Below are positions 5,701 to 62,936 of a stretch of 64,000 nucleotides of DNA, piece after piece. Numbering within the stretch: the stretch's first letter is position 1; each line of letters starts with the position of its first letter. The notes below the pieces were generated by a model, which did not search any database, was not told the origin of the DNA, and worked only from the letters and a program-made list of their open reading frames with translations. This DNA comes from Anadara kagoshimensis (Eukaryota > Mollusca > Bivalvia > Arcoida > Arcidae): assembly GCA_021292105.1 (NCBI GenBank), contig CM037872.1, positions 13,108,791 through 13,172,790 of the forward strand. Direction: 5' to 3'. The position numbers and the translations under genes were made by a program.

Positions 5701-8700
5701 GGAATTCAAAACCTCCAACGAAAAGAGCTAAATGTGACAGTTTTGTTATACCATGTCAACATTCTAATATCTCTTGGAACATAAATTTCCATTACTTTGT
5801 GGTATGATAAAAAAGATAACTTTATATCATGGTCAGTTAACATTTTGTGTAGCAACATCAAAGTACGATGCTAATTGAGCCATATTACACAGACACATAA
5901 ACAAAGTAGTCTACACTGGTGCACAATGAAAAAAATAAACAAAATTGTCTTTAAATGCTGTTATACTTGAACAAAACCCAAGGATCAGCATATATAACAA
6001 CGATTAATTACAAAGCTATTAATTATATCACAGAATAGCATTAGCAAATATGTATTAGTTTAAATTTTATAAACATTATTGTTAATTTTTGTATGCATAC
6101 AGATTTAAATTTTGTTGTATTTCAGAGGCAATGGAACATGTAAACACTGTGTTGCACTCTTGTTCAGCATTATGGATTTTTGTGAAAGGCACAGAGACAG
6201 ACATACTGAGGCATGTACTGATGTTGAATGCAAATGGGATAAACCAAAAAAAACAACAGAGCCAGCTGAAACAGAACTAATCAATATAACAAGAGGCCCA
6301 TGGGCCTTAACGCTCACCTGAGGAAGAGTACATATCTTATGCAGAGGTTCAATGGTCAATGACATTATTAAAAGAGAATATCAAAATTTTCAGCAGTAAG
6401 GGCCAATAATATGCAAGTATTTTTGCAAATTAATTATAATAATTATTATATAAGTATGCTATATATAACATATTTAAAGTCTAGCTACAATATATTATTT
6501 ATAAACAGCTAAAACATCTGTATGCCAATACCTACAATATTCCAATATACATGCCTATACAAAGAGTTTATAGTTTTTGAGATAATTAACCATTTAAGTA
6601 TTCGTTTGCATCTATGACCTTGACCTTTAAACCTATGACCTTCATTCATATATCAAAATGATTGTTGTGCAAATGCCTACAATATTCCATTGTACATGCC
6701 TATACAAAAAGTTTATAGTTTTTGAGATAATTAACCATTTAAGTATTTGTTCGCGTCTATGACCTTGACCTTTGAACCTATGACCTTCATTCATATATCA
6801 AAATGATTGATAGGCCAATACCTACAATATTCTAATATACATGCCTATACAAAAAGTTTATAGTTTCTGAGATAATTAACCATTTAAGTATTAGTTTGCA
6901 TCTATGACCTTGACCTTTGAACCTATGAACTTCATTCATATATCAAAATGATTGTTAGGCCAATACCTACAATATTCCAATATACATGCCTATACAAAAA
7001 GTTTATAGTTTTTGAGATAATTAACCATTTAAGTATTCGTTCAATTTTATGACCTTGACCTTTGATACTATGACCTTCATTCATATATCAAAATGATCAT
7101 TAGGCCAATACCTACAATATTCCAATACACATGCCTATACAAAAAGTTTATAGTTTTTGAGATAATTAACCATTTAAGTATTCGTTCGCATCTATGACCT
7201 TGACCTTTGAACCTTCATTCATATATCAAAATGATCGTTAGGCCAATACCTACAATATTCCAATATACATGCCTATACAAAAAGTTTATAGTTTTGCAGA
7301 TAATTAACTATTTTGGTATTCTTGGACATCTGTGACCTTGACCTTTGAACCCATGACCTTTATTCATATATCAAAATGACCATTGTGCCATTACCTACAA
7401 TATTCAGATATACATGCCTATACAAAAAATTCATAGTTTTGCAGATAATTAACTATTTTGGTATTCTTGGACATCTGTGACCTTGACCTTTGAACCCATG
7501 ACCCTGTTCTATGTATCAAAATGATCGTCATGTCAATACCTACAAATAACTGAAAATCCTACGCCATTATCACAAGAAATGTTAAAAAAATAGGATTTTT
7601 TTATCAAAGGTCAAAAACTGGGACATGACCTTGACATCAATTGGAAGAAAATTGCAAGACAAGATCAACAGTGAAAACTCCATACAATTATCTTCAGCCG
7701 TTATTGAGCTATAACAATAAATGTCTCATTTTCAAAATTACATAATTTTACGCAAAAAACGCGTAACCTATTTTTCGTCTAATTTTCATGAAAAACACAA
7801 TTTTAATGTTCCTAGGTATGCTGAATCCAAATATCCAATCAAAATTTGTCTGCACCTTTTGGTTTCAGAGAAGAAGATTTTTTTGTCTTTTTGCTATTTT
7901 TAGTAACAGCGGCCATCTTGTTGGGCGTGGCCAAACCCCGAACACAATTTTGAAAGGCTGTTACCCAGGCATGATAATCACCAAGTTTCATCAAATATGG
8001 CCCAGTAGTTTTGGAGTAAAAGATTAAAATGTAAAGTTTACGCACGACGGACGACGGACGGTGATAGATTGCAATAGCTCATCTTAGCCTTTGGCTCAGG
8101 TGAGCTAAAAATGCAAAATGCTTTTACACCCTTAGTTGAGCCAACACCATCCAGTTTTATCCCCAATGTTTCAATAGATCCTCTTCTTTTAAAAAATGTG
8201 GAAAAAGAGGTGTACATGTTATTTAAACATACCAATGCACTAGTTTTGCAAACACTTGATCCCCCGTCAGATGATGAATCTATTTCATCTGATGAACATG
8301 TTCTCCAAACAATTGAAGATGCCTTTGATCAATACAATACAATAAAAACCCAAAATTCAATTGTAGACCACTTAAAATCTGTTTTTACAGAAGATATTAT
8401 CAGAGTGATTAGGATTATAACAATTGGACAGGCAAGCAATCCTGCTTGGTTTATTCACAGAAGGGGCAGGATAACTGCCTCAATTTTCCCATCGATAATG
8501 CATTTTAGATTTAACAATAGCTGTGACAACTATATCTTGAAAAAGATAATGGGTTCATGTGACACTGTAAATTCAGCATCTCTCCAGTTTGGTAGAGATC
8601 ATGAACCTATCGCCAGGCATCAATATATTGAATATGTCAAAAAAATTCACAGGTCACTAAAGGTGGAGCAATGTGGGCTTTGTATTGATATCAACAACCC

Positions 8701-9061
8701 ACACATGGGTGCATCTCCTGATGGTATTGTTATCTGCAAGTGTTGTGGTAAGGGTTTGCTCGAGATAAAATGTAGTTATGTTTATCAAAATGCAACCCCA
8801 ATTGAAGCTTGTAATGATAATCATTATCATGTTTATTGTGATGAAAATGGCGAGGTTAAATTGAAAATTTCAAGTCCTTGGTATATGCAAATACAAGGTC
8901 AAATGGGTGTGTACAATCTGCCCTGGTGCGATTTTGTATTTTACACAAAAAAGGGAATATCTGTAGACAGAATTCATTTTGATCAAGATATATATCAACA
9001 AATTGTTGAAAAATGTACAAAATGTTTTGAAAGATATGTTGTTAAAGCACATCAACAATAA
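2753..9061 (+). CDS. SAP / SWIM zinc-finger / YqaJ-type nuclease of the transposon, split by an insertion
   Basis: Three exons: 2753-3069, 4074-4298 and 6126-9061. Both junctions use GT/AG and keep phase. Exon 1 encodes a SAP-like helix pair (LQDFLKERG...KKQHLIRLCG), a putative DNA-binding module. The exon 2/3 junction builds a SWIM zinc finger, CSC...CKHC, which supports the splice choice. From 8111 the frame encodes a YqaJ/lambda-exonuclease-like PD-(D/E)XK fold: NPAWFIHRRGRITAS, a Glu in FGRDHEP, the Asp of GASPDGI, LLEIKC and the Gln in MQIQGQM, so all expected catalytic positions are present. It ends at a TAA at 9059-9061. A 1.8-kb element (about 6289-8107) interrupts exon 3 between the SWIM and YqaJ parts and brings a stop about 13 codons in. 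The product is therefore broken unless the insert is spliced out. The gene converges on the transposase gene, 532 bp away. The start ATG in AAAATGG fits the SAP boundary. Confidence 0.8.
6289..8107. mobile_element. 1.8-kb non-autonomous element with satellite core, inserted in the YqaJ gene
   Basis: The insert starts ACAAGAGGCCCATGGGCCTT with GCTCACCTGAG close behind, and ends in CTCAGGTGAGC. The two ends are therefore short inverted copies. The core is a seven-copy 145-bp tandem repeat (6528-7553), followed by a unique 3' part with the CGGACGACGGACGG string at 8045-8060. It holds no coding sequence I trust. The flanking reading frames belong to one protein, which shows that this is an insertion. 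A shorter, more diverged relative lies at 49880-50490. I believe this repeat class is abundant in bivalves, but cannot assign it firmly to a superfamily (SINE-like, Helentron-like or MITE). The target duplication is unclear. Confidence 0.7.
6528..7553 (+). repeat. 145-bp tandem repeat, seven copies
   Basis: The anchor ATGCCTATAC recurs at 6551, 6696, 6841, 6986, 7131, 7269 and 7414. The spacing is exactly 145 bp except once, where a 7-bp loss gives 138. Each unit carries TGACCTTGACCTTTGA, which contains two TGACCT half sites spaced as in nuclear-receptor response elements. The last two copies are the most diverged. The array forms the core of the inserted 1.8-kb element. Confidence 0.9.
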
Positions 9062-9593: not shown

Positions 9594-12500
9594 CTATTGA
9601 ACCAAAGGGTTTTTAAGATTACATAAAAATGCACAGACTTTTAATATTTGGTTGCATAAAGGTTTTACATTCAGTGGAATAGTATTTTCCAGTATTTTGA
9701 AATTTTTCAATCGCCCAATAGCTCTTTCAACATGTATTCTTAATTTTGCAATCTTTCTTGTCTTTGTAATATCCACTGGTGTAAGACGCTTTCCTATTCC
9801 CCAAGAGCATTTCTTTGTAAAAGGGGGGATATTTAGTGGGGCATGCCTCTCCAACAAAAGATCTCTTATCATAAATCCTCAGTCGGCCATCACTTCATCA
9901 CCAGGTCTTACGAGATCTAAAATCCCACAATTCTTGGTGATGAAGCGATCCGAAACATTGCCACCCCAAAGATTTGAGATGAAAGAAAATGCCCCTGAAG
10001 GAGTGATGGATACTAGTGCTTTAAATGTATTCCTATGTTTGTATGAACTATAGGTTTGCATCTGAGCTGTAGGGGATGATGGTTTCTCAATAAAAAATTC
10101 AGTACAATCAATAATACAAGTTGTTTTGGGATAAGAAGATTTAAAGGCTTTGGGAATGAATTTCTTTCGGCGACGGGGGTTGGGCCACTTCAACAAAGGT
10201 GAAAATACAAAATTTAAATAATTTATCCAGGTAACAAATATTTGAGAAACTCTTGACTTTGATATGCCAAAAATATCTGCAAGAACAAAAGTTGGCAATG
10301 CAAGCCGTAAACGAAGTAATGTTAAAATAAATTCGTGAAATCTAGTCAGTTTTCTAGCTGGGCCAGTTTTCTTCTTTGACGAATCATTCTGATAGTTGGT
10401 AGTATGATGTGTTCCCAAACTCCCTCGCCAATACTTTAATACAGGTGACAATGTGTTTATAATCGCTGAAAATATAGAGAAAAAAGTATAAAAATGCAAC
10501 ATGTATACCATAGAAAAATAAACACTCAGTTGACAACTTGGGGATTCAAACTTAAGACATCAGATTCCCACCCCTAAACAAAATATATACATTTCTTACT
10601 GATGTTATGTCAATCTCATTTATGCTACCTAATTGACCACAAGGATTATAAACCACTGTGGTAGCTCAGTTGGTAGAGTGCTCGGTCCGTAAGTGGCATG
10701 TTGTGGGTTTGAACCCCGGCCAGGTCTGACCCAAGACTTTAAGGCTAGTAGTGACTGTTCTTTCGCCAAGCACTTGGCATTACAGAATGAAAAATTTCTG
10801 CACTTTCGCCTATTGCTGGGGATGTGTCGATTTAAGTGAAATATTCTTGACTGGGACGTTAAACACCATTACTCAACTCAACTCACAAGAATTATGAGTG
10901 TCAATACAGGGTTTGAATTTCAATTGTTTGGAAACCTTATTTGCAATGTACTAGTTTAACATTTTGCATGTACAAGTGTCATCAAAAAAGAAGCCAAAGA
11001 CATCACACATGAATCATATTCTGTAACATTAAGATCTTTTCTACACATTTTGACAATGTTCTAAGTAGCGTGCTATTACTTTGTTCAAATTAATGCAATT
11101 ATAACACAAACTTTGAAATAGACATGGCACTGCAAGTGATTCAAAACCTTAATTTTCTTTATACTTGCAAAATGAAATAATTATTCTAATTTTTATCATG
11201 TATAATGAAAGAAAACACATGTTAACACAGACCAATAAGAAGTTTAAATTTTTACCAAAAAGGCCAAAAAGTGACTATACAGATGGAATTCCCAAGTATC
11301 TCTGGACAGAAGCATCATCTTCTGTAATTTTCTCAATGAAAAGAATACGTCTAAGTCCATCTTTGTCTTCCATCTGTTTTTTGCATTCTGTGAATTCTTC
11401 CTCTCCCTGCCTCATATCCATCAATGTCAAATCAGTCTGTACTGATACATCTTTCATTTTAATGGTGTTGGTCTGGATATAGTCATGATCTAAAATTGGA
11501 ACATCAGAAAATATGGATTCATATGTTTATTTTTGATTATTGTTGGTAATGTTATAACCAAGTCATTGATCTAAAAATGTGGTATTAAATGATTGGCTAA
11601 TAGCTATTATGAAATTCAAAAATGATAATAGCACTTAAGAAATAAAATAATATTCAAATATTTATATTGCATCATGCAATCTGCAAAATTTTCTAACAGC
11701 ATAACTTTTCATGTATACGTACTCTTCTGATTCTTAAGGATCTATAGTAGTTAATAAGTTCAAATCTATTTATTTTTAACTAAACAGAGTGTGGTTGTGT
11801 TAAATGTGTACACGTACAAATTGAGTGTCAGTTAAATGTCAATCCTTCACTTTTTAGTCTTAAATACACAATATGCAAAATTTTTGTTTTCATTCATTCC
11901 ATATTTTCGAAGTTCAGGAATATAAACATATTGCACTAAAGGGTCAATCTCCTCAAAATTTTCTGCATCATAAAATTCAAGAAGACAATACACATTGTCA
12001 TACTTCAAAGAAAGTAGGTATTGTAATTTCTTAAATTTTAATTAACTAAATTACCTGAATACAGTTTAAAATTTGCATCTCCTGAATATGTACTGGTAGT
12101 GCTGGTGGTAGTCACTATGATCTCTTCCTTCTCTACAGGTAATGGGAATTGGCTGGTTGATAAATCATTGATCTAAATTTGTAAAGAAAATCTTGCATAA
12201 CTATTAATTTTCTCAGTCATATGTCATCAACAGGAGTGAAGTGCAAATACTTTAAAGAACAGCTATTGGAGTGGTGGAGTAACATAAATCATATACCTCC
12301 CTATAACTTGGTGTTTTGTTGCTGATGTTACTATATTTTGGTCCATACAGTATAGCAGGCCATGTTGAAGACCTGCACTTTAACATTAAATTTTATTTAT
12401 TTTTATATTTATTTGATTTTATACTAAAATGATTATGTACCACCTATACAAAACATGGTAATTATTGAATAATTATGATAAGTAAACAATTTATTTCTTG

Positions 12501-15788: not shown

Positions 15789-18700
15789 TGCATTTTTTTC
15801 TCAAAGATCAAGGTCAAGAGGTCTAATATTTCTGTATGAACAGGAAGGTCTTGTAACAAGGAATATATTTGCCAAATATAAAAGTCCTAGCTCCAAGGAG
15901 AGAATGTTATGATCAATGTTATGATCAAGGTTAAAAGTTTCAAACAAACAAACTTGAATAAGCATTAAGCCCTGCACTGGTCAGGAAACATAAACCAATT
16001 GAATTTTTTGTCCAATTAAAAATTAAAAATTTTACAAAATAAACAATAATAAATCACATACACTGGCATCCATAAATAAGTTTATATGCATATGAAATTT
16101 TAAGATTTTCCAATGGTTTTAAAACTAAATTTTATTTTATGGCCAAACAAATGTATGAAATTTAAATTATCAAAGAAATACAACAAGAGCTGTTATTATT
16201 GAATGACAATGTACATGAATATACAGAATAATCAACTATAACATTCAAATTAACTAAAATTTCTTTCAGCAAAATTATACCTCTGCAGCATATTCCTTAG
16301 TGCGTTTGCCTACTGGTATTTTTACCAATACAAAATCTCCCTCTACATATGGTCCCCTATTATCAACAAATTTTATTATGAAATTTATGTTCATTCAATA
16401 AATTGTGAATTCATTGAATTGGCACTAGCAATTTTTAGTAACTTAGAAAGGCTAGAAGAAATTAAATATACAGACCTTGCCCAGCTAATACAAATTTGAT
16501 CGACTATGAATTTGTCAACGCCACCGCGGACTCTAATGGGAACTGGGACAAAGTGGTGTAAACCATTTAGAATACTTCTTTTCATTTCATTTGTACTTGC
16601 AAGACATAAAAACTTGACCGGGTTGATTGATTAATGTGGTTTAACAATAACAAATGAACTGCATTGGACCAGAACGTTGAGGCTGATGGAATGAGATGAG
16701 CTGAGTAATGGTGTTTTACGCCCCAGTCAAGATTCTATCACTTATTTTGAGGCGGTCAATTCTGGGATGGTGGAGGAAACGGAGTGTCCGGAGAAAATCA
16801 TAGACCTTTGGCAAGCAAGCTGACAAACTTTCACACACTAAGATCTGCCCGAGTGGAATTCGAACCCAGGCAGTGAGTGATTGAATGACTGGCAGACTAA
16901 ATTCCCTTAACAACTTTGTTATGGAGCAATAAAAAGATGCATGTACCTTTCTTTTTCTACAGTTGTTTCCAATATATCAAATAATAATTGGATCTCATCT
17001 GGTGGTATTTCTGGAAAACTTGTATCCATTGGCATTGGGTCTTCAGTTTCATTGTCATTACCATTCTGATCCTGTTGTTCCATTGGCATTGGGTCTTCAG
17101 TTTCATTGTCATTACCATTCTGATCCTGTTGTTCCATTGGCATTGGGTCTTCAGTTTCATTGTCATTACTATTCTGATCCTGTTGTTCCATTGGCATTGG
17201 GTCTTCAGTTTCATTGCCATTACTATTCTGATCCTGTTGTTCCATTGGCATTGGGTCTTCAGTTTCATTGTCATTACTATTCTGATCCTGTTGTTCATTT
17301 TGAACAGGCATAACTTGATTAACAGGCTCAGCAGCTATCGCAGATTTCAGAACAACAGTTTGCCATTTTTGCACATACTGTTTGTTTTCACATAAATCAA
17401 AGTTATTGCATAAACATGAAGTGCAGAAACAAGAGAGATTTCTAACTTGGACTTTCTGAGGTTCACCAACAGATTTGATGCTATGTAGTTTTCTTGTGCC
17501 TTTTAATGTTTTTGTTGCTCTCATAAGACGATTTCGTTCTATATCATTTGATTTAACAAAAAAAAAGGTACGCTTATAATGCATATGGTTACCATCTTTG
17601 GTTAGAGTGTCTTTCCCATAATTAAAAAGATCTAATGCATTATTTATTACCAAATTGTTGCAATTGACTGCTCTTCGGGCAGAGATTTTCACAACTGCTC
17701 CAGCGCCATCGGACGGACCTTTTCCATGTCTGGAACCGTAATAATGGCGCTCCACAGAGAAGCCATTATCTTGTTGTCCATAGGATATGTCACAAAATGG
17801 CAAATGCGATTTATATTGGGCACTACAGCCATCTGTGAACTGTATTTCCTTCACAATGTTTGGAATTCTACTTTTCAAATGGTTGTTTGCAATTAATACA
17901 AAGGTATTAACTGCATTTGCGTCATGGTTTAAATCATCTGATATAAAGATAAGAGCTTCTTGAACCACCGAGTCGCAATTTTCTTCTTGGCATTTGTAAT
18001 AGGCTACTGAAGGGTGCAATGTTACTTGCTCATGGCCCCAATGAGCACTTTGAATTTCATGCTGAGAAATGCAGCTGTAATTTTCAGAGTAATCCATATT
18101 TAGCACCACCCAATCTGGGGGCAAGTTTTTTGTTAAAGATGAGAATTGGTTTTGTTGCCACCTAGCAACAAACAGATGTTTGGCTAAACCGTCTAGTTCA
18201 CTTGTTAATTCCATCACGACAGAATTTAAGCTTTTTTCATGTGACCTTGGCATTACTCTGGTGACTTCTTTTCCATCTCTTTTTGTGTACTTAACCCTTT
18301 CCCACTTTGTAAATTGTATGGTTTCTTCTGCGCCATATGTTTCCAGAAGAGGTTGCATTTTGTTCATAAAAAGATCCGAGCTACAATCACCACACGTTCT
18401 ATCTATGCAGCACAGTTTAGCAAATTTACCATCAAAGTTACAAAGAGTTGCATTCACAGCTTTGTAACGGTCTTTAATCAATGATAATACACAATCTACC
18501 TTTTTCCTAGTCGCAAGGGAAAAAATTGGAGCCAACTTCAAATCTACATTTGTGCATATGTCACAATAAAAACTATACCAGGGTTGTTTGTTTGTTGCTT
18601 GAACAGCTTTAGGTTTAAGACTCGCAAATGTTGAAAATCCTATCTTCATGCCAGGATTTTCATGTTTAAAATCCTCAAAAAGTTTTCATAGGTTGATTTA

Positions 18701-31576: not shown

Positions 31577-32032
31577 TTAACTGATCAACCAAAACCTGAA
31601 TAATGAAATTTATTACATCAGAAATAACCCTTTCGCTATTTTTATACCCCAAAATTGAAGTTAATACATTCCGATTCTTGGGTATGTATTAGGAATAGTA
31701 CTAGCTAAAAGATAATTTTGATGTTTTAAGATATGTTCTTTTCCAAAATTAGGTTATCGCCCTTTGACCAGTAAATATTTTTTCGGTTACAGTGAGCAAA
31801 GTGAAACCATCAAATATCAAACCATTTTTAAATATTTATAATTAATAATTTAAATGCTCAAATAAGTTTTAAAAAACTGAACCTTTGTTTAATGGTAAAT
31901 ATATAAATTGTTTATGTCTTCAACTCGATTAATAAGTATACTTCCTCGTGCAAAGTTTTTTTAGTATATATTTTGGTCCTTTGGCTATCCTTCACGCATC
32001 TTAAAACGCTTTTGGTTTCATAGTTTGGTCCA

Positions 32033-32078
32033 AGCAATACTGTTGTGGAATTGCATTGCGAAACGGCCGTCTAGTGCT
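32033..32078 (+). ncRNA. degenerate hammerhead ribozyme motif (copy A)
   Basis: The 3' half (CGAAACGGCCGTCTAGTGCT) is identical to the copies at 41.4 kb, and the upstream GGTTTCATAGTTTGGTCC is shared too. The CUGAUGA box and stem II are not preserved, so self-cleavage is not expected. It is a single relic of the same repeat family. Confidence 0.6.
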
Positions 32079-35000
32079 GTAAAATTAAAACTGCTATAAT
32101 ATTTAATTTAATAAGACATGAGACTTTAATGACAGGAGTAAATAAAAATAAGCTCTGTGCCCAGTAATTAAAATAATATTAAACTTTTGCTTTTAGTTAA
32201 AATACAATGATATTAAATCTAGCATTGATCAATAATTTAAAAACCAGTCATGGCCGTGCACATAAACAAATAAATCAAACATTTACGTTTCCACATGTAT
32301 GTTAAACAACATCTGTCGGATGCTCAATTATAGTATTGTCAATAGTAATATTTCACTCCTTGCAAAGTGAATACCGACTACACACGCTACATACGATTTA
32401 CCGGGTAACCAGTACAAAGTGAAACAATATACAAAAATTCAAACGTAATTTTTACAGCAATGGCAAAATACAACAATGACAAAAAATATGCAAGTATATC
32501 GAATCTACCAAAAGTAACTCGTCTGTCTCTAACCTCGACTTTATCATGTTGTTGGAAAATCGCTGCTTTCTTCATCAACAATTGCTTCTGGGGAATGTCC
32601 CTTTTTATCTCGCCGTCTGAACGATCTTCCAATTTTCCTTCATTTAGACTTTGCTTATGAACTATGCTATATTGGCGTCGTTTTTATGACTTGTTTCCTC
32701 GGCGTTTCCACATCTGAATAGTAAGTTGTATATTCCGACTTTTGCTTCATCTGATTTTTTGGACTATATAAACACTACTTATACGTCAGAAGACCTTTAT
32801 ATCTAACGTCTTCTATTTCGATTACAGGAATGCAGTTAATGTACATTTTACTATGTCATGCAATAGTTTTATATAAAACTGCTATTTTGTCTGAACAGAC
32901 AATTTCGTTGTGTAAATCTGTGTCGATGCTGTGCTAGTTTCTGACTCTGTCTCTGTTTAATCTAGTTTATCTTGCTTGTCACTGCCAATTTTTACAACGG
33001 TTCTATCTTTGATATAAAAAAAAATTACTTCGCATATAAAAAACTTTTAAATATTGTTTACACTTAAATACTTTCAAATTCCTTAAAAATTAGACTTTTA
33101 AACATTATTTGTATAAACTTGAACATATGGCAATTATAACTCTAAATATTCTATGCACTCTAAACTGACCTAATTCAGGAATATGACCTTTTAACTGTTT
33201 TAACAAAATATGAATGTAATCAATTATAACATCTATACAATGAAAAGTGTAGTTCTTGCATCAAGAGGAAAATTGTACAGACGTTTATCCACACTTCAAA
33301 ACCAATATTATTATCACTATGCACATGTTGACATCTCATATGTTTAAACCGACATGGAAAATCATGCAGAAAATGATGAACTACTTAACCATCGTCGTCA
33401 GATTTCTTTTAGTCGTAATCCCATAAAATCTATTCTATACCTGGCATCAACAATGATTCTACAAATTTTGGATACTGTTATTCCACTTAATTTATTTCCC
33501 ATACTAGAATTACCACAAGTTTAATTTCCGTTGTACATGGCTAAGGTTTTCCCAAATGTGTAAGAAACATTTTGTTCCTTCGGCGTCACGCCAACCAGCC
33601 TCTTTAATATTTATCTGTATGTCTGGTTTGAGATAAGGACGGTGTTTTTATTTAGTGCACCTCTGGGAACAGTTCTTATGAGGCTACAACAATATGGAAA
33701 CCTAAAAAATGGAAATAAACACATTGTAAGCACAATATAAAACCTTTAACATGGCAGCTAATAATCTAGAACAATACTACATTATTCAATTCATTTGCAC
33801 GGATATTTTACTAATAATATGTTTACACATGATGACGTCATTAAAATGTGGTGATGACAAAGGTTAAATAAAAATACTAATCCATAATCAAACTAAAATC
33901 TTTGAAACTGACTAATTAGATTTAACACGTGAACTTTCACTTAGCATTTGAACTTTCCCCAGGGAAGTTAGGTCGGGTTCTCCGGAATGGGAAGCGACCC
34001 TTGTTTATGGAAAACATATGAAAAGTATTTGAAGTGGTTCCAAAGCACGGTCTATTAGGTATCAACTCCATCGGGGACTGTTGTGTTTAATGTGTCTATC
34101 CAGTTTATCTCTTTAATACGGCGGTAGTAATGAGACTGTCTTAACATGCTTAAGATTATTTCTTAAATAACTAGTCTTACATTATAAATCATGTCGTCTT
34201 TGAAGTTGAAGTGTATGGCAACCGGATCTCTATTATGTTATATATCTGTCAAATGTTCTCCTATTCCGATCTGTCTCGTATTCTTTCTCAGTCTTACCAA
34301 CCTAAACTATTTTCTGACATCGATTAGAATTTTCGCACGAAAAACGCATAAAAATCGTGCGAATTTTGTGCGTACAAAATTACACATGGGGATTTATTAT
34401 GTCATGATTGTGGAATCTGCTCAAATCCCATGAGGATATTAATCAAGTCTTGGTTTCTCATTGCCTTTTACAAACCCTATTGCAAGCTGAAAATAGAATA
34501 ACATGTGATTTTTTTTATTTACACCTTCAAGGTGATATCTCTCTTTTTCTTTCTTTAACTCCAATATAAAATACAATTTCGACCATACCATACAATTTTA
34601 ATTGATCAATATATTTGTTCGAGATTGATTTTTTTGTTTCTTATCATTTATATCAAAAACTAATCCATGTCAGAACCACAATATAGAAGAAAATTAAAAA
34701 CTTTGAAATTGACAAGTCAGGTAAAACAAAGGAATAATTGAGGTCGGGTGTTCAGGAAAGTTAAGCACCCCCTGTTAAGCAAGCTACACCTGCCACGAGT
34801 GTAATTTTATCATTCATATTCGGTTGGTTTTTTTTTCAAATCCATGATAGTGTAATCTTTATTTTTACAAACCTTTGGAAATAAAATTAATAGAACACTA
34901 GTGAAATGAATTCAACATGGTTCCATTATGAAAAATGGACAATTTTTGTGTGGTATATACTTTAGAGTTATTGAAACATGTGCATTATGTATAATTTTAA

Positions 35001-40605: not shown

Positions 40606-41360
40606 CCATTTTCAGGGAACCCAATTGAATAAATCATTTTGTATTTAATGGTCATTAATAACCGCTTGCCTCGCAGAATTCAAGAGAACAGTCACCAATC
40701 TTCACGGGCAATAATGGATTTGATTTAGATTAAGGAAAATATCTGAAACATTGGGATATTTTGACACGGCAACACAAATATAATCAGTTTAAAACTAAAA
40801 CATTAGCTACATTTAACTATACCTTAACATATGTAATTTTACCTTTCTTTTGAAAAAAAAAATCCAGCAATGTATGTTGGTTTTTTTTACCTGAACGTCA
40901 TAGTGGAAGTATCGAATAAAACCTTAACACTGTATCGACTCGATCTTTTTAAGAACTATTCTAGCAACACTGAGTTACAAACCATGCATTTAGATGCAAT
41001 AATTGGATAGCGGTTTGAGCGAAATTCTTTATGCAATACACATAGACAAGTGTAGATTATTTTTGTCTAGGAGGTAACAACCCCCACACACATGTGCGAG
41101 TCTGCGGTTATGCACGACCCGTTTGCCACTTTGAATTGAACTGTCTATCTTTTCTGTGTCTCTCATACTTCTTTTTGCGATCGTTGATATCATCAGGAAT
41201 TAGGGGGGATTTTTGTTGGGCTTTCAGTCTGATCATTATGTTAATTTTCGGAATTTAAACCGGATATCGAATTAAATTATCGTTCTTGCAATCAGTATCT
41301 CTATATGTTTGTAGCTTTTCAAAATCTTCAAAATAATTTTGGTTTCATAATTTTGGTCCA

Positions 41361-41406
41361 AGCACTACTAATGAGGAATTGTATTCCGAAACGGCCGTCT
41401 AGTGCT
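41361..41406 (+). ncRNA. hammerhead ribozyme motif (copy B)
   Basis: Stem I AGCACTA/TAGTGCT pairs fully. Stem II GGAAT-TGT-ATTCC pairs fully and is longer than in copy C. GAAAC, the short stem III and the GUC cleavage triplet are present. The CUGAUGA box is not fully canonical, so activity is doubtful. Confidence 0.7.
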
Positions 41407-41471
41407 GTAAAATTAAAACTGGTATAATATGTAATTCTTCAAAATAATTTTGGTTTCATAATTTTGGTCCA

Positions 41472-41515
41472 AGCACTACTGATGAGGAATTGTTCCGAAA
41501 CGGCCGTCTAGTGCT
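41472..41515 (+). ncRNA. type I hammerhead ribozyme with intact core (copy C)
   Basis: Order: stem I 5' strand AGCACTA (41472-41478), CTGATGA (41479-41485), stem II GGAA-TTG-TTCC (41486-41496), GAAA, a very short stem III closed by loop GGCC, then GTC and stem I 3' strand TAGTGCT (41509-41515). All conserved core bases are present and both long stems pair. Cleavage is expected after C41508. The tiny stem III is typical of the animal hammerheads that work best as dimers. This is the best ribozyme in the window. Confidence 0.85.
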
Positions 41516-41767
41516 GTAGAATTAAAACTGGTATAATATATAATTTAAACCCCTGAGCCGATATCTCTGCTGGTGCCCGAGGATATCGCATACTCAGTAG
41601 GCAATAATTTCGTTTTATTGTCAGAAATATACTATAATTTCCTGCAAGTTGAAATTTCTCAAAAACTAAGGTGTATTTCCTTAGCTTAATTTGGTAAAAT
41701 ATATTTTGGTCATTTGGGTAGCTTTTCAACATATTCAAAATAATTTTGGTTTCATAATTTTGGTCAA

Positions 41768-41808
41768 AGCACTACTGATGAGGTATTCAGAAACGGCCGT
41801 CTAGTGCT
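41768..41808 (+). ncRNA. hammerhead ribozyme motif with degraded stem II (copy D)
   Basis: AGCACTA, CTGATGA, GAAACGGCCGTC and TAGTGCT are all kept, but the stem II segment is shortened and does not pair well. Activity is therefore uncertain. Confidence 0.65.
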
Positions 41809-41840
41809 GTAAAATTAAAACTGGTATAATATGTAATTTG

Positions 41841-50699: not shown

Positions 50700-52310
50700 G
50701 CGGTCATAGGGTCATAACGTTGCATTGCAGACAGAACATTCACCTCAGAAGTCGTGACGACGAAATAGAAATGTCATGGTTTTACTAAAAGATAAAGGCA
50801 ACAAGAGAAACAATTTTGAAAAATCATTTAGCGTCCGAGACATATATGAAAACTAAGTACACGTCTCCCCAGATACAGAATGAATTGATCCTCCTTTGTG
50901 AAAAATACATTAGAGATAAAATTATTAAAAAAGTGCAACGAGTCAGTTTGCTATTCCTGTTTGGCAGATGAAGCAACGGATGCAAGTACTTTGGAACAAA
51001 TTGGCATGTGTGCACGCTACTATTCACAAACTGATAAAGAGGTTATGGAAGACTTTGTTGGTTTTATCCAAGCAGATTCAACAACAGAAGAGGCCCTTTC
51101 TGCAAAGTTTATTAAGGGTCAGAGGCGTGTTCGAAGTCTGGACATCACAAAAGTGCGTCGACAAGACTATGATGACACAAGTAATATGTTCGGCTGTCAT
51201 CGCGGAGTTCATGATAGGAAATAGTACCACACGCAACGTGTGTACACTATAAAGCTCACTCATTGAATTTACCAGTCGTTCACGCCTATAAAAAGTACTC
51301 GCGTACGCAATATGATTAATACGCTACAGCAAATTGCTTTCTCGTTCAATTATTATGCCAAATGTTTGCTTGAATTTTAAAGAAGACTTGAGTAATTATG
51401 ATATTGCTAAAGTGGAGATGGAAAAGAAGGCAAAACTTGTGCAAGAAGCCAGTATGGCCAACTCATTATATACATTTAAAGCTGCATACTCTACCATTGT
51501 AAGTTCTCTGGAAGTGTTGGAACGTGATGGTGGTGACACCCTAGACACGCAGTTATAGATGCAGTATATTCAATTTTGACCTTATCATTTCTCTTATAGT
51601 TTCTGAGGTTGTCATGCAGGGACTATTATTCCGCAACACACACTTACAGGCAAAAGACATTGACTTAGTCCAGCGGCAAAGAAGAGTAAAGTTTGAATCA
51701 CACAGATGCATGCTGCGAGACAAAATGAAACTGTTTGAGGCGATCTTTACCAAAAACCAGTTCACTAGCAGACGACGTATACCCATCTAAAACTGGAACA
51801 CCTAGACAGCAAGTTTATCGAGATAATAATCCAGCTGAAACTATCTCGGAGTATTAGAAGTGGGCTTTAGTTCATCCTTTCTTGAAACACCTTACTTCAA
51901 GTCAGACTTATTCAGGGACATGCGCGTTTCTTTGCACAGTACCCGATTCCCAAATTGCTTAATTAGTTAACGGAGTAACATGAAGACAGTATATTCAATA
52001 CCTACTCCACAGACTTAACTGGGGATAGAGCTTTCGTCGTGAAGTATGTTGATGGAATTCACGGAGATCCCTAGAAGAAGACCGACCTGACAACTTAACT
52101 TCAACAATTGGATTGACAAATAAATGTGTGGATCCATGTATCTTTACATGTTTGGTCATTTTTATCACCATGTTGGTTACTGTTACTGCTAAGAACGTTC
52201 AGCGTAATGCGAAGGGTCAAGAGTTATCTTCGATCGACAATGACTACTGGCCACTTTTCTGGATTGGCTATGCTATATAGCTACCGAGGCGAGGACATTG
52301 ATATTAATTA
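50700..52310 (+). pseudogene. hAT transposase (ZMYM1 / DUF4371-like), decayed
   Basis: Rightward pieces: KYTSPQIQNELILLCEKYIR (50850-50935), CLADEATDASTLEQIGMCAR (about 50957-51020), DFVGFIQADSTTEEALSAKF, then LDITKVRRQDYDDTSNMFG, a long degraded middle (51334-51790) and the hAT C-terminal dimerisation block RTFSVMRRVKSYLRSTMT (52180-52310). At least five changes of frame or stops occur. The order and motifs are those of the hAT-derived ZMYM1-like proteins. Confidence 0.7.
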
Positions 52311-52406
52311 GATAATCATTCTTGCTAGATAAAATACACGGAAGTTGGACTTTTAATTGATAGAATAATTAAATCTTTTCAGCATCTTGAAAACAATTTT
52401 GGTCTA

Positions 52407-52453
52407 AGCACTACTGATGGGAAAATTGTATTCCGAAACGGCCGTCTAGTGCT
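52407..52453 (+). ncRNA. hammerhead ribozyme motif (copy E)
   Basis: AGCACTA and TAGTGCT pair, and GAAACGGCCGTC is intact. Stem II (GGAA...TTCC) is enlarged and the CUGAUGA box is not fully canonical. The upstream word TTTTGGTCTAAGC and the downstream ATAAAACTTGTATATTTTG match the 41.4-kb units. It sits just downstream of the hAT fragment. Confidence 0.65.
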
Positions 52454-52499
52454 GTAAACATAAAACTTGTATATTTTGTAATTAATAAAACACAACAAG

Positions 52500-62261: not shown

Positions 62262-62936
62262 AGCTGAACTTTATTAGGCGTCGAGGTAACATAACGCCAA
62301 ATGAATTCCCTTACTATATCTTATTACATGTACATAGTGGACTTCATTAGGCGTCGGGGTAACTTAACGCTTAATGAAGTCCCTTACTATATCTTATTAC
62401 AAAGTGAACTTCATTAGGCGTCGAGGTAACTTAACGCCTAATGGAGTCCATTACTATATCTTTGTACATAGTGGATTTCATTAGGCGTCGAGGTAACTTA
62501 ACGCCTAATGAAGTCCATTTTGTAATAAGATATAGTAAGGGACTTCATTAGGCGTTACATTACCTCGACGCCTAATGAAATCCACTATGTACAAAGATAT
62601 AGTAAGGGACTTCATTAGGCGTTAAGTTACCTCGACGCCTAATGAAATCCACTATGTACAAAGATATAGTAAGGGACTTCATTAGGCGTTACGTTAAGTT
62701 ACCTCGACGCCTAATGAAATCCACTGTGAAATAAAATATAGTAAGGGACTTCATTAGGCGTTATGTTACCCCGACGCCTAATGAAGTCCACTGTGTAATA
62801 AGTTATAGTAAGGGACTTCATTAGGCGTTAAGTTACCTCGACGCCTAATGAAATCCACTATGTACATGTAATAAGGTATAGTAAGGGAATTCATTTGGCG
62901 TTATGTTACCTCGACGCTTAATGAAGTTCAGCTTCA
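62262..62936. repeat. central array of about ten palindromic units that changes direction
   Basis: Each unit is GGACTTCATTAGGCGTCGAG, a TAACTTAACG core and then CGCCTAATGAAGTCC, so each is itself a palindrome. Units are separated by about 25-30 bases containing TTACTATATCTT and TTACATAGT. Four units run one way (62262-62519) and six the other (62530-62936). Spacers invert at about 62520-62530. The same GGACTTCATTAGGCG motif opens the element at 61003-61075. Confidence 0.85.

Follow-up and report, generated by a model that had tools for sequence, protein, structure and literature searches.

Short dispersed repeats with type I hammerhead motifs, mostly decayed, in a 64-kb stretch of eukaryotic-looking DNA

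In animals, retrozymes have been characterised as 150-450 bp units repeated in tandem, which give rise to linear and circular RNAs of ~170-400 nt (PMC7229834). For Mytilus galloprovincialis the same source reports ~5000 copies of type I hammerheads, usually in repeats of ~350-390 bp (PMC7229834). Animal type I hammerheads with a weak stem III are described as acting as dimers (PMC7229834, PMC7761336), and dimeric type I hammerheads of this kind have been reported from newts and axolotl (PMC7229834, PMC6155905). According to the accounts of Penelope and Terminon elements, their hammerheads are usually without helix III (PMC7761336, PMC6155905). Among the hammerhead-and-mollusc matches listed from a partial library, PMC7229834 and the review PMC7761336 are the only ones that deal with hammerheads of molluscs by title or abstract, and none points by title or abstract to the sequence described here; in PMC10886601 retrozymes come up only where LTR elements are compared.

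The DNA analysed here, all of which we call the window, is 64 kb long; it is AT-rich, contains transposase fragments and looks eukaryotic. Five homologous type I hammerhead motifs are present in it, all on the + strand, beginning at 41361, 41472 and 41768 (copies 1 to 3), at 32033 (copy 4) and at 52407 (copy 5). The five related copies that an initial annotation of this DNA had listed were indeed recovered, and GAAACGGCCGTCTAGTGCT has five exact occurrences in the window compared to a mean of 0.00 in 100 shuffles. Stem I is fully paired in four of the five, as had been stated, and the stem III sequence ACGGCCGU, which comprises two pairs and a GGCC loop, is found in all of them. Copy 2 (41472-41515) has a complete type I motif in the order CTGATGA, stem II, GAAA, stem III, GTC and a 7-bp stem I, with predicted cleavage after C41508. 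It is the only copy that keeps every core base, exactly as had been claimed for it. The broader claim that the core elements are present in all copies was right for copy 2 but not for the other four, in which the core or stem II is damaged: CTGATGA is found in copies 2 and 3 only, and copy 3 (41768-41808) has lost most of stem II by deletion. The core reads CTAATGA (G5A) in copy 1 (41361-41406), which was recognised by alignment and by Rfam RF00163, CTGTTGT in copy 4 (32033-32078), which also has one mismatch in stem I, and CTGATGG in copy 5 (52407-52453). In these four copies the cleavage-site half is intact, with the site at C41399 (copy 1), C41801 (copy 3), C32071 (copy 4) and C52446 (copy 5). 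In the canonical form of the type I hammerhead, loops 1 and 2 make a tertiary contact; here loop 2 has only 3 nt, and for copies 1-3 the predicted stem I is extended and contains an internal loop.

The 3′ half of the motif, 22 nt in length (GAAACGGCCGTCTAGTGCTGTA; 41497-41518, + strand, in copy 2), is identical in all five copies. Stem III corresponds to the 8-nt palindrome ACGGCCGT (41500-41507, + strand), for which the predicted partner is its counterpart in a neighbouring copy. Exact searches for GAAACGGCCGTCTAGTGCTGTA in viral_contigs and genome_contigs gave 0 matches each, which is not surprising for DNA that looks eukaryotic.

The identification as a hammerhead holds for copy 2, and the other copies qualify only as its degenerate homologues. 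A descriptor defined by the core CTGANGA, a stem II of at least 3 pairs, GAA, a TH cleavage site, a stem III of at least 2 pairs starting with A-T and a stem I of at least 5 pairs matched copy 2 and nothing else on both strands of the window; in 100 first-order Markov simulations the same descriptor gave 1 match, both strands included. Likewise, the type I order CUGANGA...GAAA...NUH with stems I-III, open at stem I, is found in copy 2 and is broken in copies 1, 3, 4 and 5. In local scans with Rfam RF00163 (Hammerhead_1), copy 2 scored 28.3 bits (E 9.2e-5, 701-nt scan), copy 5 22.5 bits (E 0.0021, 201-nt scan) and copy 1 19.0 bits (E 0.016, 101-nt scan); copy 3 reached 14.0 bits (E 4.8, not significant) and copy 4 gave no Rfam hammerhead match. 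The covariance-model match that the initial annotation had anticipated at copy 2 was thus obtained, but like the scores of all other copies it lies under the gathering score of 34 bits, which is a curated cut-off and not a structural criterion, and two Rfam scans of the whole window listed no hammerhead. That four of the five copies were matched locally and none in the whole-window scans is presumably due to laxer filters on short input. Scaled to 64 kb, the E-values become ~0.008 for copy 2, 0.7 for copy 5 and 10 for copy 1; therefore, on Rfam alone, only copy 2 stands. The RF00163 family shares with our copies the three-way junction, the core and a short stem III, and its consensus, GAAACGcgCGUC, also has a palindromic stem III; it differs in that our best copy stays at 28.3 of the 34 bits and has a loop 2 of three nucleotides. 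A covariance model derived from the five copies themselves, R1, scored copy 3 at 59.3 bits and copy 4 at 70.0 bits, values that are not independent of the model. R1 revealed no sixth copy in the window, the next match being the reverse strand of copy 5 (13.5 bits, E 0.17).

Each motif lies within a longer repeat module on the + strand, 109-143 bp in length by the boundaries chosen. The module of copy 1 (41311-41436), which by blastn resembles copies 3 and 4, is joined head-to-tail to the module of copy 2 (41437-41545), whose 5′ end is shorter. This is the only such contact, with a period of 111 bp and 109 nt between the cleavage sites. Copy 3 follows 293 nt on, past a 153-bp spacer (41546-41698) that is not recognisably part of the repeat; its module (41699-41838) has one of the longest 5′ extents and shares 81.5% identity with 31966-32109 in an alignment of 146 columns. 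Copies 4 (31966-32108, recognised by blastn similarity) and 5 (52373-52483) are dispersed singles. Of the three tandem and two dispersed units described before, two tandem units and the dispersed pair remain, and copy 3 does not belong to the tandem. A larger repeat unit running through the spacer had been suspected by eye and was rejected, as none of the six comparisons of the spacer with other flanks reached significance (p 0.07 to 0.49, Markov-sampled controls). The spacer contains an imperfect hairpin at 41553-41597 (outer arms CTGAG / CTCAG, inner arms CGATATC / GATATCG), which is predicted to be paired in a 293-nt circular fold.

Repeats of other kinds are found elsewhere in the window. 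An array at 62265-62927 has a unit of ~67 bp that forms an inverted repeat around GACTTCATTAGGCGTC / GACGCCTAATGAAGTC, and it matches Rfam MIR6217 with 91 bits (gathering 110). A satellite-like unit of 145 bp that includes GACCTTGACCTTTGA is repeated about seven times at 6521-7545, and a 54-bp repeat in ~5 copies (17020-17296) lies inside a 588-aa open frame (16919-18685) that has no Pfam match at 0.001.

We consider it the best explanation, with a probability of about 0.65, that the five modules are non-coding dispersed repeats of ~110-145 bp, each with one type I hammerhead, that are expected to form double-hammerhead dimers in two-copy transcripts and probably spread as a non-autonomous retroelement. 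The motif, the homology of the copies, their decay and the invariant 3′ half were observed directly, and the dimer fold was computed. Metazoan retrozymes (coral, mussel, axolotl), compared here by their description in PMC7229834, are alike in having a type I motif in a short, non-coding, AT-rich repeat and an expected action as dimers, and the axolotl HHR_Amex2 is described there with a two-pair stem III capped by a tetraloop. It is therefore natural to ask whether our copies are a non-LTR retrozyme, that is, tandem units that are transcribed, self-cleaved, circularised by tRNA ligase and reverse-transcribed from the circle. Only the tandem unit and the circle set this reading apart from the best explanation, and the odds of the two do not sum to 1. 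The type I hammerhead, the absence of a Pfam domain nearby, the one head-to-tail junction and the ~5000 type I hammerheads reported for M. galloprovincialis (PMC7229834) are in line with a retrozyme, as is the module GC of 0.30-0.36, although a GC below 50% is weak evidence in a window whose 2-kb GC is 0.265-0.381. On the other hand, only two units are contiguous, these are unequal in 5′ extent, the other three copies are out of tandem contact, and the 109 nt between cleavage sites compare with ~170-400 nt in the published elements. Tandem units of ~150-450 bp with one hammerhead each are not seen in the window, which has a single pair with a period of 111 bp. We regard retrozyme status as unlikely for these copies and do not class them as a retrozyme; of the retrozyme-like array that had been proposed, one head-to-tail junction is left as support, and the size of the unit and the dispersal of copies 4 and 5 argue against it.

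Penelope-like elements carry, according to PMC7761336, tandem type I hammerheads that may act as dimers, and mussels and other invertebrates are reported to have them alongside retrozymes (PMC7229834). Our copies could accordingly be remnants of hammerhead-bearing pseudo-LTRs of Penelope-like or Terminon elements. The minimal hammerheads of these elements, as described in PMC7761336 and PMC11167929, resemble ours in type I topology, tandem occurrence and the proposed dimer mechanism. They differ in that the non-conserved nucleotides of helix III are usually missing there, whereas all five copies here have ACGGCCGU, with its two pairs and GGCC loop. In addition, the described hammerheads of Penelope-like elements belong to pseudo-LTRs that have a reverse transcriptase ORF next to them, and neither feature was seen here: six-frame Pfam scans (E up to 0.1) of 39.5-44.3, 30.0-34.0 and 50.4-54.4 kb found no reverse transcriptase and no GIY-YIG domain within ~2 kb of each copy, a result that a heavily decayed domain could escape. 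An origin from such elements is in our view quite improbable. The window also contains a 327-aa ORF at 8078-9061 with a YqaJ / viral alkaline exonuclease domain (Pfam 3.5e-16, 3.7e-13), a DDE_Tnp_4 transposase ORF close to it (9879-10559) and, at 50949-51200 on the + strand, a weak match to DUF4371 (5.9e-05, under its cut-off) that is perhaps a decayed transposon.

How the repeats were dispersed can be approached from their edges. The similarity of the modules ends near TAATT on the 3′ side and their 5′ ends differ among copies. Two of 21 flank comparisons were under 0.05 uncorrected (down4/up5, 0.015; up1/up5, 0.040), neither of them involving the spacer; this is about the yield expected of 21 tests, and the flanks are mostly unrelated. 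The dispersal, the mostly unrelated flanks, the 3′ end near TAATT and the differing 5′ ends fit retroposition, and the repeats probably spread as a non-autonomous retroelement by means of the reverse transcriptase of another element. Six boundary guesses were tried in looking for target duplications, and a duplication of 7 nt or more arises at 8.25% of 400 random places. A possible 7-nt target duplication, TAATTAA, is present at copy 5 (chance 0.0825), 7 nt are duplicated near copy 3 but 5 nt off the edge of the module, and 6 nt around copies 1-3; for copy 4 and for two boundary guesses around copies 1-2 there was no duplication of at least 5 nt. A tRNA-derived SINE was also considered and is not supported: the 74 matches to a pol III B-box-like pattern (up to 2 mismatches) all lie outside the modules, and there is no tRNA in the 64-kb window. 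The schistosome Smalpha / W-elements, compared by their description in PMC8490949, are similar in that they have satellite-like as well as dispersed copies, some with mutated cores, and an extremely short stem III; they differ in their SINE-like descent, which is unsupported here.

Folding predictions, whose energies do not include tertiary contacts, gave different results for single and for paired copies. In copy 2 alone, the CUG of the core is paired with CGG (P 0.68-0.69), the monomeric stem III has P 0.0 and the hammerhead fold has -6.7 kcal/mol compared to -11.2 kcal/mol for the best fold. Two strands of copy 2 in RNAcofold gave exactly the double hammerhead, with -32.3 kcal/mol versus -22.4 kcal/mol for two monomers, and in ordered two-strand folds of the five copies all eight inter-strand stem III pairs were formed in 25 of 25 combinations; these folds leave out concentration, and a self-complementary sequence favours an inter-strand stem III. 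Self-complementary repeats indeed favour dimer folds regardless of function. Within one strand, the transcript of copies 1-2 (41340-41545) has an inter-copy stem III with P 0.961, an outer stem I with 0.93 and an inner stem I with 0.378; in the transcript of copies 2-3 (41451-41838) the values are 0.961, 0.921 and 0.942. In neither transcript does a copy form a stem I of its own (P 0), and the monomeric stem III has P about 0. The double hammerhead of 41361-41515 has -36.0 kcal/mol versus -19.4 kcal/mol for two monomeric hammerheads, but the minimum-energy fold of copies 1-2, at -37.7 kcal/mol, displaces the inner hammerhead, which is the one with the intact core. A dimeric hammerhead with stem III between copies is thus predicted in two-copy transcripts. 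In the three-copy transcript, stem III pairings compete (0.289 for copies 1-2, 0.255 for copies 2-3 and 0.42 for copy 1 with copy 3, a pairing of two broken cores); the outer stem I of copies 2-3 falls to 0.036, and the stem I within copy 2 has 0.286.

Based on these folds, the following mechanism is proposed for the best explanation. The hammerhead of each repeat has a palindromic stem III of two base pairs. In a two-copy transcript, ACGGCCGU of one copy would pair with that of the next to give a stem III of 8 bp, and each core of the dimer would combine one copy's 5′ half with its partner's cleavage site. Since the core is built from two copies, the intact core of copy 2, which provides the one intact 5′ half here, would cut the site of its neighbour. 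If the locus is transcribed, cleavage would be expected at C41399 (copy 1), where the core of copy 2 would be in the inner, less certain hammerhead, or at C41801 (copy 3), where it would be in the outer one; monomeric cleavage at C41508 would be weak. Transcription, cleavage, circularisation and mobilisation of these repeats are what we infer.

Is there selection on the motif? Stem II variants of different but paired length had been taken as a sign of constraint at the RNA level. This argument did not survive: the difference in stem II length between copies 2 and 1 is one 2-nt indel, none of the 14 hammerhead pairs is altered on both sides, and the same is true for all 12 pairs of the RNAalifold structure. 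Nor is RNA-level constraint supported for the catalytic 5′ half (5′ arm of stem I, core and stem II), whose mean pairwise distance is 0.134 versus 0.133 and 0.130 in the 5′ and 3′ flanks; it varies as fast as the flanks, with no sign of selection in these five copies. The fold energy of the copies, taken as 91-93 nt, is no better than that of dinucleotide shuffles (z 0.13, -0.05, 0.26, 0.69 and -1.62). The 3′ half behaves differently, with 0 of 22 columns variable, compared to 20 of the 67 gap-free columns outside it (Fisher p 0.0023); an invariant run of at least 22 columns was found in 0.69% of column permutations (p 0.0069, gap columns collapsed to events). This invariance is a lead, as it was noticed post hoc in only five sequences, two of them (copies 1 and 2) closely related.

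These data bear on the question whether the motif is a fossil with no present ribozyme function, left in dead insertions of which one has kept its core by chance. We take this as a serious possibility, though one with less than even odds, and it is compatible with the best explanation as regards the origin of the repeats. The drift of the 5′ half at the rate of the flanks, the four broken copies out of five and the missing fold-energy excess speak for a fossil; the invariant 3′ half, with its post hoc p values, the whole motif kept in copy 2 and its near-isoenergetic dimer fold with copy 1 speak against it. An idea that we find improbable and offer as speculation is that conservation is split: the cleavable 3′ half is kept, the 5′ half drifts, and enzyme-dead copies are cut by rare intact neighbours. 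If so, cutting would proceed in cis or in trans by way of stem III and its palindrome, the copies would persist because they serve as substrates, and a cluster would need no more than one intact core to be processed.

Several observations count against the best explanation itself, namely the Rfam scores below threshold, the damage to four of five cores, the lack of covariation and of a fold-energy excess and the CUG/CGG pairing in the monomer. The predicted folds add the low probability of the inner hammerhead in copies 1-2 (P 0.378) and the competition for partners in the three-copy transcript. Altogether, the locus is real, mostly decayed and ordinary in kind, a new member of a class already known, the type I hammerhead repeats of animals.

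With it, a family of short dispersed repeats joins the type I hammerhead elements known from animals. It also leads to a concrete prediction that differs from that of the initial annotation: the dimer would cleave the site of the neighbour, C41399 or C41801, rather than only C41508. If the invariant 3′ half beside a drifting 5′ half were found genome-wide, this would show whether enzyme-dead copies are kept as substrates.
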